Below, one piece after another: positions 5,893-33,707 of a DNA stretch of 40,845 bases (positions are counted from its first letter, which is position 1; each line of letters opens with the position of its first letter). The position numbers and the translations under genes were made by a program. The DNA is from Candidatus Peregrinibacteria bacterium. Lineage in GTDB: Bacteria > Patescibacteriota > Gracilibacteria > Peribacterales > Peribacteraceae. Where the stretch lies: assembly GCA_016178535.1 (NCBI GenBank), contig JACOTD010000012.1, positions 1-40,845 of the forward strand. Direction: 5' to 3'. The notes under the pieces are model-generated. The model searched no databases and was not told the DNA's origin. It saw nothing but the letters and a program-made list of their open reading frames with translations.

Positions 5893-5990
5893 AGTCGAAC
5901 TGCAAATGGCGAATTGTGAATTGCGAACTTTGCTCATTCCATTCGCAACTCGTAATTCGTAACTCGTAACTCGTAACTCGTAACTTCTCA
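5893..5990. repeat. Heptamer-based inverted/tandem repeat (CGTAACT-type)
   Basis: gcgaattgtgaattgcgaa ... ttcgcaactcgtaattcg as imperfect arms; tandem cgtaactcgtaactcgtaactcgtaact. Confidence 0.8.
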
Positions 5991-13427: not shown

Positions 13428-13536
13428 GGGTGAAATTGAAAATTGATAATTGAAAATGGATCATGATGGTAGAAACTCTGACACAGGTGATACTTCCATC
13501 ATTTTCAATTATCCATTCTCAATTTTCAATTGAAAT
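13428..13536. repeat. Heptamer-type inverted repeat (ATTGAAA/ATTGATA) between divergent genes
   Basis: aaattgaaaattgataattgaaaatgga ... tcattttcaattatccattctcaattttcaattg; the arms differ by one 7-nt unit. Confidence 0.8.
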
Positions 13537-20743: not shown

Positions 20744-23700
20744 ATGTTCGACCCCGTCGATCCACGGCAGAATTTCCCCTCGCTCGAGCGTGGCATTCTG
20801 AAGGAGTGGCGTGAGGAAAACACGTTCAAGCGATCGATTCATCAGAGGAGCCGCCAGGAGGGAGACCCGCTCGACGGGAAAAAAGGGGCGAGGGAAGACT
20901 GCTTCAGCTTCTACGACGGGCCGCCGTTTGCGACCGGGCTCCCCCACTACGGCCACCTCCTCGCGGGGACGATCAAGGACGTCATCCCCCGGTACCAGAC
21001 CATGCGCGGCAAACGCGTGGACCGGCGCTTCGGGTGGGACTGCCACGGGCTCCCCATCGAGAACATCATCGAGAAGGAGCACGGCATCAAGAGCAAGAAG
21101 GAGATCGAGGCCATGGGCGTGAAAGCGTTCAATGACTTGTGCCGCAGCGCCGTCCAGCGGCACACGAAGGAATGGAGAGTCGTCGTGGAACGCATGGGAA
21201 GGTGGGTCGACATGGATCACGACTACCGGACCATGGACCCCGAATACATGGAGAGCATCTGGTGGGTGTTCGCCTCGCTCGCGGAGAAGGAGCTGATCTA
21301 CGAGGGCCGCAAGCCGATGCATATCTGTCCGCGATGCCAGACATCGCTCTCCAATTTCGAAGTGACGCAGGGATACAGAGAGATCACGGACTATTCCGTC
21401 ACGGCGAAGTTTGAACTCATCGATGAGCCGGGAACATTCGTCCTCGCGTGGACGACGACTCCGTGGACGCTACCTGGGAATTTGTTTCTTGCTTTGAATC
21501 CTAATATCCAATACGTGAAATTTAAATACAAAAATGAATTCTGCATTGTTGCAGAAGCTATATGGAATAACCGTGAAAATCCAAAAAATGTATTGCACTC
21601 ACTCATGTACGCCAAAGCGCATGAACCAGGTATGCCAATTTTTGATACCGAAAAAATCGTTGGTAATCCATTTTCAGGGAAAGAACTTCTCGAAAAAAAG
21701 TATGGTCCTCTCTTCCCCTACTTCGCCGAAGAATACCAGAGAAGCGCTTTCCGGATCGTGCCAGGGGAATTCGTCACGATTGACGAGGGAACGGGCGTTG
21801 TGCACATCGCACCGGGATTCGGCGAGGACGACTGCAACATCGGGAAGCGAGAGCGGGTTCCCCTCCTCCAGCACGTTCACATGGACGGAACGTTCACGAG
21901 CGACGTGAGAGAGTTCTCCGGCATGCACGTGAAGCCGAAGGAAGATCCCAGCAAGACCGATCACAAAATCGCCGCATGGCTCGATGCGCACGGAAAGCTG
22001 TTCGCTGCGGAAAACTACTCTCACACGTACCCCCATTGCTGGCGATGCGATACTCCCCTCCTCAACTATGCGACCTCCTCCTGGTTCGTTTCGGTGGAGA
22101 AAATCAAGGAGAACATGCTCCAGGCGAACGCGGAGACGGAGTGGGTGCCCTCGCACATCCGCGATGGAAGGTTCGGGAAGTGGCTCGAGAATGCGCGCGA
22201 CTGGGCGATCTCCCGCTCGCGGTACTGGGGCACGCCGCTGCCGATCTGGCGATGCAGCGAGACGGGAGAGACGGAGGTGATCGGGAGCAGGGACGATCTG
22301 ATGAAGCGCAAACCGATCCGGTTCACGAAAGTAACGGTGCTGCGCCACGGTGAGAGCGGGGGGAACGTGGCGCCGCTCTACCAGGGAAAACCACCCGGAA
22401 CGGATCTGACGGCGAAGGGGAAGAACCAAGTGCGCGCGACGGCGGATCGCCTTTCCGACGAGACGATCGCGCGGATCTACTGCTCCCCGCTCGCGCGGAC
22501 GACGCAGACGGCGGCGATCATCGCGGAGGAGACGGACGCGGAGGCAGTGACTGACGAGCGCCTCCGCGAGGTGGAATTCGGCGAGTACGAGGGCACATCG
22601 ATCGATTTTTCCGACCTCACGCTCGTGAGAGCCAGGAGAGCCCACAAGCTCGAGACGGGGAAGATGGAGAGCATCTACCACTTCCCGGGCATGGAGACCT
22701 GGAAGCACGTGCACGCGCGCATGAGCGATTTCTTGACCGACGTCCTGCCCAGGCACCGCGGCGAGCACATCGTGATCGTCACGCACGCCGATCCCCTCCA
22801 GAACATCCGCACCTTCTTCACGGGCGAAGACCCGGTGAAGATCTCGCACCAGCCTTACCCGGGCTTCGCCGAGCCGTTCACCTTCTACTGGGATCACGAC
22901 ACGGGGAAGGAACTCGATCTCCACAGGGAGACCGTCGATACGATTCGGTGGCCAGGATCTCCGAACGAGAAGAGCGTTGAGGTGACCATCGTGCGGCACG
23001 GGGAGACGGACTGGAACAAGGAGCGCAAAGTGCAAGGCGGCGATGTCGACGAGCCGCTGAATGGCGAAGGGGGAAGCCAGGCGCATGCGCTCGCGAAGAA
23101 GCTCGCGAAGAAAACATTCGACGTGATCCTCTCTTCCGATCTGAAACGGACCGCCGGGACAGCCGCCATCCTCTCAAAGGAGCTCGGCGTTCCGCTCGCG
23201 GGTGAATGGAGAGAGCTCCGCGAACGGTTCACGGGTGAATGGAGCGGGACGTCCATCGATGACGTGATGAAGAAGCACCCGCGGATACACGAGAAACAGA
23301 GTCCGGTTTCCCAGCACGCAACACCGCCGGGCGGCGAGAGCCTCTCAGAATTTCTCCAGCGCATGGAGCGCGCCTACGACCGTCTCCTCGAAGAATTTTC
23401 CGGGAAGAAGATCCTCATCGTCACGCACAAGGGGGTCATTCAGGGGCTCGCAGCGCTCGCGGAGAATCTGACGCACAAGCAGGCGATTGATCATGCGAAG
23501 GAGAATGCCGAACTGCAGACGCTCACCCTCCATCCCCTCCTCCGGCGCATCCCCGAGGTGCTCGATTGCTGGTTCGAGAGCGGCTCGATGCCGTATGCGC
23601 AGGGGCACTTTCCCTTCGCACTTCGCACTTCGTACTTCGCAATTGATCAGGAGCAAAAGGGCGAATTGCGAATTGCGAGTGGCGAATTGCCCCCCGGCTT

Positions 23701-26621: not shown

Positions 26622-26748
26622 CGGAGAATGGCCAGATGGTTCGATGGTGAGATGGTTGCAAAGCAAGATCGAGATCGATGGAAACGAACTCTGAGAATCG
26701 CTTGCGAACCATCTAGCCATCACACCATCGAACTATTCGTTCCCTCAT
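26622..26748. repeat. Heptamer-type inverted repeat (GATGGTT-like)
   Basis: ttcgatggtgagatggttgcaaagc ... gcttgcgaaccatctagccatcacaccatcgaa. Confidence 0.75.
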
Positions 26749-28598: not shown

Positions 28599-28788
28599 AG
28601 AAAAAGGGGGGGAATGTCTGCGCGACTATAGCATCTCTCATCAGCATCTGCATCTGCAGAACAATCTCTCCCCGCAAACATTCCGCAATGCCAAGGATCA
28701 TGCTATGCTCATCGTCTTCGCTCTCTGAAACCATGGGCGAGAAGTTCTCGGTCTCTCATGCTTTTCTGTTTCTCTGAGTTTTTTTGGG

Positions 28789-29202
28789 GGATGACAGGTT
28801 TCGACAGCGTGATACGAGTCCGGTCGTGCTTCTGTTCGGGATGGCAACGGTTCCCGTCACCCACCGCTGCGCACCATATCTGCCAAACTGACAGATCGCG
28901 TTTCCGATTTCGTGAGCAAGGTCACAGGCTTCGCAAGAAGCTTCGTGCCTTCGTTCGCACCGGCATTCGCCTAAGTCCGCACGTGCTGCGGACACGTCTC
29001 ACCCCCGATTCTCGCTACGGGGATGAGGCGCCACCAGCGAGACAGGCAGAGCGTCTGATGTCGCGCTCCGCCTGACTTCCGACATCATCCTCCGCACCTT
29101 TCCTTGTTCCTTCCTCAGGGGTGCGGAACGCGGAAGGAACACGACAGTACGAGCCATCGCACTCCACGTTGGACCCGGGTTCAATTCCCGGCATCTCCAC
29201 CA
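28789..29202 (+). ncRNA. ssrA: Transfer-messenger RNA (tmRNA)
   Basis: 5' GGGGATGACAGGTTTCGACAG and 3' GGACCCGGGTTCAATTCCCGGCATCTCCACCA; acceptor GGGGATG pairs with CATCTCC; tag ORF ends ...PAFA-TAA (28972-28974) followed by a GTCCGCA/TGCGGAC stem. Confidence 0.95.
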
Positions 29203-29222
29203 AACTTCGCGCAGCGAAGTTT
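29202..29222 (+). repeat. Hairpin directly at the tmRNA CCA end
   Basis: AAACTTCGC-GCA-GCGAAGTTT. Confidence 0.6.
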
Positions 29223-29239
29223 GCCCCGTGTAGCCCAAG

Positions 29240-29488
29240 ATGCTTTACTTCTTCGCCGCGTGGTGCCCCATTTGCCACCAGACCAACCAGACGCTCACCT
29301 CGTGGTACACTCACGGCGATGGATTGCTGACGATCTACAGAATCAACTACGACACGGAGAAATCCCTCGAACAGAAGTACGGCGTCACGTACCAACACAC
29401 GTTCGTGAAAGTCGATGGCAAAGGCAATCTCATCACCATCCTCACCGGTCCGAGCGACGAGGAGTTACGGGATCTCCTCAAGGCGTAA
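29240..29488 (+). CDS. Thioredoxin-fold protein (short N-terminus)
   Basis: MLYFFAAWCPICHQTNQTL (WCPIC). Confidence 0.75.
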   Translation: MLYFFAAWCPICHQTNQTLTSWYTHGDGLLTIYRINYDTEKSLEQKYGVTYQHTFVKVDGKGNLITILTGPSDEELRDLLKA

Positions 29489-29526: not shown

Positions 29527-30366
29527 ATGCTCTCCATCGCGTTCACGCTCTTCACGTCGGGACTCCTCACGATCCTCCTGCCGTGCATCCTGCCGTTGAT
29601 CCCGATTGTCCTCGGTGTGAGCATCGCCGATCGAAACCGCTTGAGACCACTGGTGACGATCCTCGGACTGCTCCTGAGCTTCGTCGGCTTCACGTTCCTC
29701 CTGCAGGTCGTGCTGAGCCAGTTCGTCGAGCTGGCGGACTACATCCGGATCGCAACCTTCTATGTCCTCCTGCTCTTCGGGCTTGGATTCCTCTTTCACA
29801 AACGTGCGATCCAGCTCACAGGAGCTGTTCTCGGCAGCATCTTCTTCTTGGATAAGGGATGGATCGCCATACTCATAGCGGCCGTTCTCGGCATCATTGC
29901 AATGAAAATCGGCGGCAGGGTGGCATCGGCCATCCAGCAACTCGGTAGCGACGTGCAGGGGGCGGCTCGCACTGGATTGGGAGCGAATTCCCTCCTCACG
30001 GCCTTCATCATCGGTCTCACCATGGGGCTCGTCTGGGTTCCCTGCGCTGGACCTGCTCTTGGCTTTGCCCTTTCCATCGTACGCAATCAGCCGGGGTTGA
30101 AGGCACTCCTCTTCCTGAGCGCCTATGCAATGGGAGCGGGCATCCCACTCCTCCTCATCGGCTATGGCGGACAAGCTGCGACGCACTCCGTGCGCGCTCT
30201 CAGCCGCTACAGCGGACGCGTGAAACAGGCATCCGGCGTGATCCTCATCCTCGCTGCCATCGGCTTCAACTACAATCTGTTTCAGGATCTGCAGATCTGG
30301 CTGATCACGCACACGACCTATGGAACCCTTGGCACGAACCTATGGAACCCTTGGCACGACGATTGA
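29527..30366 (+). CDS. CcdA/DsbD-like transmembrane protein (N-terminal half of a split DipZ-like protein)
   Basis: LTILLPCILPLIPIVLGVSIADR...GLVWVPCAGPALGFALSI. Confidence 0.88.
   Translation: MLSIAFTLFTSGLLTILLPCILPLIPIVLGVSIADRNRLRPLVTILGLLLSFVGFTFLLQVVLSQFVELADYIRIATFYVLLLFGLGFLFHKRAIQLTGAVLGSIFFLDKGWIAILIAAVLGIIAMKIGGRVASAIQQLGSDVQGAARTGLGANSLLTAFIIGLTMGLVWVPCAGPALGFALSIVRNQPGLKALLFLSAYAMGAGIPLLLIGYGGQAATHSVRALSRYSGRVKQASGVILILAAIGFNYNLFQDLQIWLITHTTYGTLGTNLWNPWHDD
30316..30359. repeat. Perfect 22-bp tandem duplication
   Basis: (acctatggaacccttggcacga) x2. Confidence 0.98.
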
Positions 30367-31462
30367 AGAGAAGATCTTCGGCAAGGACATTGGACGCACA
30401 GCATCTCCTCAGCGTTCATCGTCCTCTGCCTCATCCCCCACCAGCTCGGTTCGCACTTCCTCTCTCGTTTCATCCGAAGCAGGAAATGCGGCCTCAGGGG
30501 AAACGCCCGTTCCAGGAGCTCTGCAAACGAGAGTGAAATCCGATTTGCCCATTCTCGGTGCCGCACCGTCCGCATTCGTGGGCTTGGGTCCATGGCACAA
30601 CAGTCCGCCGCTCTCGCTCCAAGACTTGAAGGGCAAGGTCGTCCTGATCGACTTCTGGACCTACAGCTGCATCAACTGCATCCGCACACTGCCCTATCTG
30701 GAGGCGCTCTGGCAGAAGCACAAGGATCAACCCTTCGTGCTCATCGGCGTGCATACGCCGGAATTCACGTTCGAGAAGAGCGAGAAGAATGTGGCAGCGG
30801 CCATCAAGGAGCATGGCCTCACGTATCCCGTCGCGCAGGACAATGACTACGGGACGTGGAATGCCTTCAACAATCAGTACTGGCCCGCCCACTACCTGAT
30901 TGATGCCGAGGGAAACATTCGCTATACCCATTTCGGCGAGGGGGCGTACGACGAGACGGATCAGGCGGTGACCAGTCTGCTCGCGGAGATCGGCTCCGCC
31001 TCGGTTTCGAAGTCCATGCCGCCAGAAGCCGCCCGTCGACAGCGAGACGTCACCCCGGAGACGTATCTCCATTCCCGCAGCTGGGACAGCTTCGGCAACG
31101 CCCAGGGTCAGCCAGACGCCGCCGTCCACACCTACACTGCACCGACGCGCATGAACCTTCACAAGTTCTACCTCGTTGGAACATGGCAGCTCGTAGCGGA
31201 CGAACGGCAAGTGCTGCAGAGCGACAGCGGCGAGATTCGCATCAGAGCGTTGGCTGGTGAAGTGAATCTCGTGCTCGGCCCGGAAACGTCCACGCAACCG
31301 GTGAAGGCGGATATCGAAGTGGACGGAACATCATACAAAACGATCGCCATCCAGAATCATGATCTCTATACCCTCTTCAAAGGTTCCTACGGACAACACG
31401 ATGTCGTCTTGAAACTGCATGGCAAAGGCGTTGCCGCATACGCATTCACATTCGGCTCCTGA
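30320..31462 (+). CDS. TlpA-like thioredoxin with DipZ-type C-terminal domain (C-terminal half of split gene)
   Basis: LIDFWTYSCINCIRTLPYLEALW, HTPEFTFEK, C-terminal FYLVGTWQLVADERQ. Confidence 0.85.
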   Translation: MEPLARTYGTLGTTIEEKIFGKDIGRTASPQRSSSSASSPTSSVRTSSLVSSEAGNAASGETPVPGALQTRVKSDLPILGAAPSAFVGLGPWHNSPPLSLQDLKGKVVLIDFWTYSCINCIRTLPYLEALWQKHKDQPFVLIGVHTPEFTFEKSEKNVAAAIKEHGLTYPVAQDNDYGTWNAFNNQYWPAHYLIDAEGNIRYTHFGEGAYDETDQAVTSLLAEIGSASVSKSMPPEAARRQRDVTPETYLHSRSWDSFGNAQGQPDAAVHTYTAPTRMNLHKFYLVGTWQLVADERQVLQSDSGEIRIRALAGEVNLVLGPETSTQPVKADIEVDGTSYKTIAIQNHDLYTLFKGSYGQHDVVLKLHGKGVAAYAFTFGS

Positions 31463-31466
31463 AATC

Positions 31467-32204
31467 ATGCAGAAATTGTTTCTGATCGTGGCTCTCCTTT
31501 TCGTCATTGTTCCGCTGACGCTCGTGAAGGCGGCCAAGACCAGGTGTACCGCGGAACGTCTCCGCGCGACGTACCAGCAAAACATCCAACGGGGGGCAGA
31601 GGTCACTCATTTGCAACGGAAGACATGGTGGAGGAACTGCCCTTTATCCATCCGAAAATCTGTGTATGCGGGACTGTTCGCTCCCGCTCAAATTTCTTCT
31701 TCGTCTGTTTCCGTTTCCTCCTCGAGGCACACTCTATCGGTACAGTCTGATCTCCCCATACTCGGCAAGGCGCCTGAGCTCCAGGGACTCGGACAGTGGT
31801 TCAATAGTGATCCGCTGACGATTGCCTCACTGAGAGGAAAAGTGGTTCTTGTGCACTTTTGGACGTTCGAGTGCATCAACTGTATCCATACCCTTCCCGC
31901 GATACAGGGCTACTGGGACAAGTATAGAGAGAAGCCGTTCGTGGTCCTGGGAGTGCATACGCCGGAATTTACCTTCGAGAAGAGTGCCGATCACTTGCGA
32001 GATGCCATCAAGAAAGATGGCCTGACCTATCCTGTCGTCCAAGATAACGACTTTGCGACATGGAATGCATTTGGGAATCAGTACTGGCCCGCGGCGTACA
32101 TCATCGATACGCAGGGTACTATCCGCTACGAGCACTTCGGCGAGGGCGAATACGAGACGATGGACAAGGCGATCCATGATCTGCTCGGAGAGGCGGGGGC
32201 ATGA
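31467..32204 (+). CDS. Secreted TlpA-like thioredoxin, paralog of the upstream gene
   Basis: Signal peptide; VLVHFWTFECINCIHTLPAIQGYWDKYREKPFVVLGVHTPEFTFEKS. Confidence 0.88.
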   Translation: MQKLFLIVALLFVIVPLTLVKAAKTRCTAERLRATYQQNIQRGAEVTHLQRKTWWRNCPLSIRKSVYAGLFAPAQISSSSVSVSSSRHTLSVQSDLPILGKAPELQGLGQWFNSDPLTIASLRGKVVLVHFWTFECINCIHTLPAIQGYWDKYREKPFVVLGVHTPEFTFEKSADHLRDAIKKDGLTYPVVQDNDFATWNAFGNQYWPAAYIIDTQGTIRYEHFGEGEYETMDKAIHDLLGEAGA

Positions 32205-32477: not shown

Positions 32478-32511
32478 TTGAATATTTATCATATGCTATA
32501 TTTTCAATGTG
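32478..32511. promoter_or_regulatory. ArsR promoter/operator palindrome
   Basis: TTGAATATTTATCATATGCTATATTTTCAATG overlapping TGCTATATT -10 box, 6 nt before GTG start. Confidence 0.55.
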
Positions 32512-32823
32512 CTATCTCCTGCTCATCAGCAGTTCCTCAAGACCCTTGGCAATCCCAAGCGGATGGAGCTTATGCTGTTCCTCCTGAAGAAGCCTCTGAC
32601 TGTCACGGAGCTCGTGGAGAAGAGCGCCATGGAGCAGTCCACCGTCTCTCATCACCTCAAGCGTTTGAGGATCTGTCAGTTCGTGAAAAGCACGACCAAC
32701 GGAAAGGAGCGCATCTACTCCGTGAATGAGGAGACGGCGGGACCTCTCTTCCGACTGATGAATACGCACGTAGACAAATACTGTCAGCGTGTTTGCTGCT
32801 CCAACAAGAAACGAACCTCGTAG
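32509..32823 (+). CDS. ArsR/SmtB-family transcriptional regulator
   Basis: LKTLGNPKRMELMLFLLKKPLTVTELVEKSAMEQSTVSHHLKRLRICQFV; C-terminal CC. Confidence 0.92.
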   Translation: MLSPAHQQFLKTLGNPKRMELMLFLLKKPLTVTELVEKSAMEQSTVSHHLKRLRICQFVKSTTNGKERIYSVNEETAGPLFRLMNTHVDKYCQRVCCSNKKRTS

Positions 32824-32855
32824 CTCTTTCTCTGTACTTTCTTCCCCCCATTTCT

Positions 32856-33131
32856 ATGGTTCGATCCAGCTCACCACAGGCGGCCACGTTTCGCGTCTTC
32901 TCAGCGGACTGCCCTCTGTGCAGGGCAACCCTTACGACCTTGTGCTCTGCCATCCAGAAGCGCGGCTGCGGCTGCCAAGTGAAAGAGCATCGTTGCAGCG
33001 GCGATGAGTGCTGCGAACCTGCGAAGGAGTACAACGTGAAGTCTGTCCCCACGATCATCCGGGACGGCAAGATCGTTCACGTCGGCAAGCTCACAGAACA
33101 GGAAGCAGAAGAACTCCTCCCCGTTTCATGA
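32856..33131 (+). CDS. Cys-rich thioredoxin-like small protein
   Basis: FSADCPLCRATLTTLCSAIQKRGCGCQVKEHRCSGDECCEPAKEYNVKSVPTIIRDGKIV. Confidence 0.65.
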   Translation: MVRSSSPQAATFRVFSADCPLCRATLTTLCSAIQKRGCGCQVKEHRCSGDECCEPAKEYNVKSVPTIIRDGKIVHVGKLTEQEAEELLPVS

Positions 33132-33346
33132 GCACCGAGGCAGCGGCCGGGCGGCACTTCCATGCAGCAGTGCTCGGCACCATTGCCGTTGCCATCTGCT
33201 GCTTCACGCCGATCCTCGTGCTTGCGCTCGGCGCAGCAGGCCTGGGGATCATAGCGCCATACCTGGACTACGTTCTCCTGCCTGCTCTCGCTCTCCTCGT
33301 TCTCGTGACAGTCCTCTCCTACCGCACATGGAAGGCTCATCGATGA
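33128..33346 (+). CDS. merF: MerF-like mercury transport membrane protein
   Basis: LGTIAVAICCFTPILVLALGAAGLGIIAPYLDYVLLPALA. Confidence 0.82.
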   Translation: MSTEAAAGRHFHAAVLGTIAVAICCFTPILVLALGAAGLGIIAPYLDYVLLPALALLVLVTVLSYRTWKAHR

Positions 33347-33381
33347 TCGACGATCTCCATCACCGGCGTGCGAGTGACTCA

Positions 33382-33409
33382 CGATGCAGTAGCCTAGGCT
33401 ACTGCATCG
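33382..33409. repeat. Perfect 28-bp palindrome without spacer
   Basis: cgatgcagtagcctaggctactgcatcg equals its own reverse complement. Confidence 0.97.
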
Positions 33410-33455
33410 GCAACAGAGCCGACGGAGAATGATCCTGCAACTTCCCTCCGAATCT

Positions 33456-33707
33456 ATGCACACCTTCGATCTCTACACCACTCCCCAGTGCGGCTACTGC
33501 AAGCAGCTGAAGACGATCATGCAAGAACGGAAGATATCATACAGCAATCATGACGTGACCATCTCTGAGTCGGATGTAGCGGACATGCAGACCCTGACGG
33601 ACGGCGGCACATCCGTTCCCGTGCTCGTCGTCGATAAGGGGACGGAGCATCAGCAGGTGGCGCAGGGACTCAACGATGCCCAGTGGCTGCTCGATCACTC
33701 CAAGTGA
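33456..33707 (+). CDS. Glutaredoxin family protein
   Basis: FDLYTTPQCGYCKQLKTIMQERK...TSVPVLVVDKG. Confidence 0.88.
   Translation: MHTFDLYTTPQCGYCKQLKTIMQERKISYSNHDVTISESDVADMQTLTDGGTSVPVLVVDKGTEHQQVAQGLNDAQWLLDHSK

Follow-up and report, generated by a model that had tools for sequence, protein, structure and literature searches.

A dipZ-like gene that ancestrally encoded a CcdA membrane part, a TlpA-like thioredoxin and a Thioredoxin_10 domain as one fused protein has probably been interrupted by a recent frame-breaking tandem duplication in the Candidatus Peregrinibacteria genome considered here. The window, a stretch of 40,845 nucleotides, is one whole contig (C10) of a draft metagenome assembly (1.25 Mb, 92 contigs). 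At the exact junction between the CcdA membrane domain and the TlpA-like thioredoxin with its C-terminal domain, the unit ACCTATGGAACCCTTGGCACGA is present in two perfect head-to-tail copies (30316-30359; 0 mismatches), and the two parts of the gene lie in different frames and do not form one polypeptide. Most likely we are dealing with an ordinary recent mutation, or with a flaw of the assembly, rather than with a proven on/off switch.

A perfect tandem duplication at a domain junction

The two halves of the gene and the two copies of the repeat are placed as follows:

29527..30366, + strand: CcdA (DsbD_TM) half, 279 aa (open reading frame; Pfam PF02683, E 7.7e-9; hydropathy)
30316..30337, + strand: repeat copy 1, 22 bp, exact match (TRF score 89)
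30338..30359, + strand: repeat copy 2, 22 bp, exact match, shifting the frame by +1
30320..31462, + strand: TlpA-like thioredoxin (SCINC) and Thioredoxin_10 C-terminal domain, 380 aa (Pfam PF00578/PF17991)

The preliminary description had claimed a perfect 22-bp tandem duplication, and so it proved: both copies are exact, no further match to the unit was found elsewhere in the window when up to 3 mismatches were allowed, and 100 shuffles gave 0 matches. Moreover, this is the sole perfect tandem duplication in the window with a unit of at least 15 bp, and none of this kind occurred in 20 order-1 resamplings of the same stretch. A perfect 22-bp duplication is thus far beyond chance. The remaining arrays in the window are shorter, many of them being repeats of the 7-bp type; arrays with 7-bp units (TCGTAAC, AAATTGA, CTTCGCA, GCGAATT) are frequent throughout the genome, both in the window (5943-5985, 13433-13461 and 23614-23690) and in other contigs. 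A separate element of about 110 bp (26627-26740) is repeated on several contigs, both in this genome and in a genome of the same genus, its longer matches being about 70-84% identical.

Copy 1 is directly preceded by CACG, which allows an alternative description of the array as a 21-bp unit lying between two CACGAC, with one extra A. The duplication may have arisen by slippage or repair through this CACGAC microhomology, which flanks the 21-bp unit on both sides.

Two halves of a DipZ-like protein

Proteins of the CcdA/DsbD type pass electrons from cytoplasmic thioredoxin through their membrane part to an outer thioredoxin domain. The CcdA half in the window keeps both the DsbD_TM/CcdA domain (PF02683 above the cut-off) and the two membrane cysteines (Cys20 and Cys173), with about six hydrophobic segments by hydropathy, and its last residues, the frameshifted NLWNPWHDD, are followed by TGA. 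The earliest start of the second open reading frame is the ATG at 30320, within repeat copy 1 and 44 bp ahead of the point where CcdA stops, and the two frames overlap by 62 bp (30305-30366). This second frame carries CINC at residues 117-120 and shows no other stop or frameshift over its 380 codons. No Shine-Dalgarno-like site was found in the context of its start, and hydropathy revealed neither a signal peptide nor a membrane segment in its product, which lacks any hydrophobic segment near the N-terminus. Both frames are those of the preliminary description, whose figure of ~637 aa for a one-copy frame is arithmetically correct.

Among solved structures, the best match of the second product is DipZ of M. 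tuberculosis (2HYX, E 1.2e-49). SCINC is a signature of DipZ (PMC6107167), and the mycobacterial protein (structures 2HYX and 5CYY of its C-terminal domain) shows the same order, in which a CcdA-type membrane part precedes a TlpA-like thioredoxin bearing SCINC and then a C-terminal domain, whereas in the window the two parts are read in different frames.

The fused form is ancestral

The comparison covered 74 genomes of the same order, of which 26 carry an intact two-domain gene. Every one of these 26 copies is a single open frame (604-664 aa) with the same junction motif, which in the aligned fused relatives reads like HTNFGDLGTRLEERLF or NTSFGTLGTDLEEKLF. In the window this shared motif is spread over two frames, the CcdA frame giving THTTYGTLGT and the other one TYGTLGTTIEEKIF. 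Since fusion and junction motif are common to all the intact two-domain relatives, the fused form is, by sequence, the ancestral one and the split in the window is derived from it by the duplication. Together with the Pfam domains and the match to DipZ, this bears out the idea of a DipZ-like gene split by the repeat. The closest parallels, the fused CcdA-TlpA-Thioredoxin_10 genes of Peribacteria-type relatives (e.g., G023 and G029), share about 55-67% identity and the junction motif, but they keep a single open frame and lack the 22-bp repeat; in fact, we did not find the repeat at the junction of any relative, and the tract is therefore not conserved. For the same genus, the comparison covered one genome of 75% completeness, in which the contig breaks off within the tmRNA, before the gene is reached.

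The split claimed for the window would have lost its meaning if all the relatives were naturally split at this point, and they are not. One group (G007, G017, G092-G095 and G075) has only the CcdA part; its open frames count 287-306 codons and end just past the junction motif, and no TlpA match was found in these genomes, which indicates an absent rather than a split-off domain. In G007 and G017, where thyA directly follows, the gene ends at almost the same point after the last membrane segment as the CcdA half of the window, but its frame is intact and no TlpA half lies downstream. The thioredoxin lipoprotein encoded before ccdA in G017 (L134, 2790-3659) has two tandem thioredoxin domains.

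Age and consequences of the lesion

Relative to the conserved ancestral frame, the frame in the window is broken, as in a pseudogene or another loss of function. Compared with the 26 relatives, the CcdA half of the window has a mean identity of 0.608 and the TlpA half one of 0.598, and the same difference among intact relatives spans from -0.061 to +0.039. The window falls within this range, so that its TlpA half does not show the faster evolution that would mark an old decay. Since the TlpA half is not running ahead and its frame has no other lesion, the mutation looks recent, or else not real. We infer that the duplication exists in the cells, that it is recent and that it causes a loss of function.

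In the fused protein, by analogy with its better-known counterparts, the CcdA membrane part would relay electrons of cytoplasmic thioredoxin to a tethered outer thioredoxin domain. With two copies of the repeat, a membrane CcdA of natural length could still be made: the split product (279 aa) comes close in length to proteins that naturally consist of CcdA alone, and for this reason it may still fold. The tethered TlpA domain, in turn, would be lost, or poorly made in the wrong compartment, as without a signal peptide, a membrane helix or a ribosome-binding site it is predicted not to be exported.

Neighbouring genes offer a putative backup

Three further features surround the broken gene:

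28787..29202, + strand: tmRNA (Rfam RF00023, 84 bits; ARAGORN), immediately upstream, as context
29240..29488, + strand: truncated thioredoxin (CPIC), matching profile positions 23-102 only
31467..32204, + strand: second, separate TlpA-like protein (CINC; Pfam), with an N-terminal hydrophobic, signal-like segment by hydropathy

Loss of the tethered domain is probably tolerated, because the genome has a second, intact pair of CcdA and thioredoxin lipoprotein (contig C70) and, next door to the broken gene, a separate and probably exported TlpA-like protein. By sequence, this pair and the protein at 31467-32204 are a backup for the lost domain. The neighbouring protein, whose matches in relatives fall within their fused genes, is also a possible free partner for CcdA. 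Next to these redox genes we find a small cluster (32509-33707), made up of an ArsR-type regulator, a thioredoxin-like protein, a MerF-like transporter and a glutaredoxin.

On the upstream side, the thioredoxin at 29240-29488 is missing the lipoprotein N-terminus that is present in relatives, and a stop lies in frame just before its ATG. Within 29203-29488, this fragment starts about 40 bp past the CCA end of the tmRNA, for which ARAGORN predicts a long tag reading frame of 30 aa (AKLTDRVSDFVSKVTGFARSFVPSFAPAFA). It is possibly the scar of a recombination event (island insertion) at the tmRNA 3′ end, although a second copy of the tmRNA end was not found in the window.

Possible recurrent decay of dipZ in the order

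Intact copies in the order comprise 26 fused and 8 CcdA-only genes, to which 5 copies broken inside a contig have to be added (the window, G010, G034, G091 and G080, or 5 of the 39 scorable ones); copies seemingly cut by contig ends (G063 and, in G077, the fused one) were excluded. For thyA, used as a control, none of the 64 copies not cut by contig ends is broken. This difference reaches a Fisher p of 0.007, a post hoc count that is weakened by the length of dipZ, more than twice that of thyA, and by the fact that two of the five broken copies (G034 and G091) come from one genus. In G010, a perfect tandem duplication of 97 bp, with the 5-bp microhomology TGGGT at its borders, breaks the CcdA part (L136, G010:C31, 2241-2439, equal to L007, 2652-2850); in another genus, this is an independent event in the same gene. 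The simplest reading is a recurrent decay of dipZ in the order, and the truncated thioredoxin just upstream of the gene in the window also fits it.

Mutation, artefact or switch

An assembly or consensus artefact, with a genome that carries one copy and an intact, fused gene, is unlikely. The assembly is a draft in 92 contigs, every intact two-domain relative is fused, and so short a unit could result from a k-mer overlap error. Against this, an array of 44 bp fits well within a short read and is normally resolved. Moreover, a sample of 360.7 kb from the remaining contigs of this assembly contained arrays of the 7-bp type and one 12-bp pair, but 0 other perfect non-microsatellite tandem duplications of at least 15 bp; a systematic error was therefore rejected, while a single error is not addressed by this result. 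A reversible switch, by which the population would alternate between fused and split forms through loss and renewed duplication of one unit, had also been proposed, and we consider it improbable. The idea is not absurd, as reversible frame-breaking tandem duplications are known in other systems, such as pneumococcal capsule genes (Waite 2001, 2003, as cited in PMC4243769) and ssp1 of fission yeast, where they are mediated by microhomology (PMC13207564), and the same gene of G010 carries its own 97-bp one. The likeness to the capsule phase variation of pneumococcus (cap3A, cap8E, tts) is that a short tandem duplication breaks the frame and could in principle revert (PMC4243769); gene and organism are different, however, and the duplication in the window is known from the sequence of one assembly. 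Related genomes would be expected to share the position of the repeat tract of a phase-variable gene, but all relatives lack the repeat at the junction; a pair of 22-bp copies is, moreover, a modest target and not hypermutable, which leaves the switch possible but unsupported. In addition, a downstream frame devoid of export and initiation signals makes a working split form doubtful. Still more doubtful is a family-wide version, with dipZ turned off and on by spontaneous reversible tandem duplications (22 bp in the window, 97 bp in G010) and populations mixed for the tethered outer thioredoxin. Our search of the literature on Peribacteria redox genes with frameshifts found nothing relevant.

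A functional fission of the gene, with CcdA and TlpA now acting as two working proteins, is very unlikely. It would agree with the CcdA-only relatives (G007, G017, G092-G095 and G075), which terminate no more than a few residues away from the split point, and with pneumococcus, where separately made CcdA and TlpA-type proteins work together (PMC3914529). Nevertheless, the split TlpA has no signal peptide, membrane anchor or Shine-Dalgarno-like site, its ATG precedes the end of the CcdA frame by 44 bp, and the CcdA-only genomes gave no TlpA match. The 62-bp overlap (30305-30366) could also suggest a programmed +1 ribosomal frameshift that restores the full protein, but this is hardly credible, as no codon pair recognised as +1 slippery precedes the stop (GAT TGA), and the site is a fresh duplication not common to the relatives. 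A recent duplication that disrupts an ancestrally fused dipZ-like gene is thus the reading that we consider most probable. If the event is an ordinary one, it offers a clear case of a conserved fusion gene broken at a domain junction, and a caution against taking two open reading frames for two genes. If both alleles were real, they would hint at a duplication-based phase variation of outer redox chemistry in an uncultured lineage with reduced genomes.
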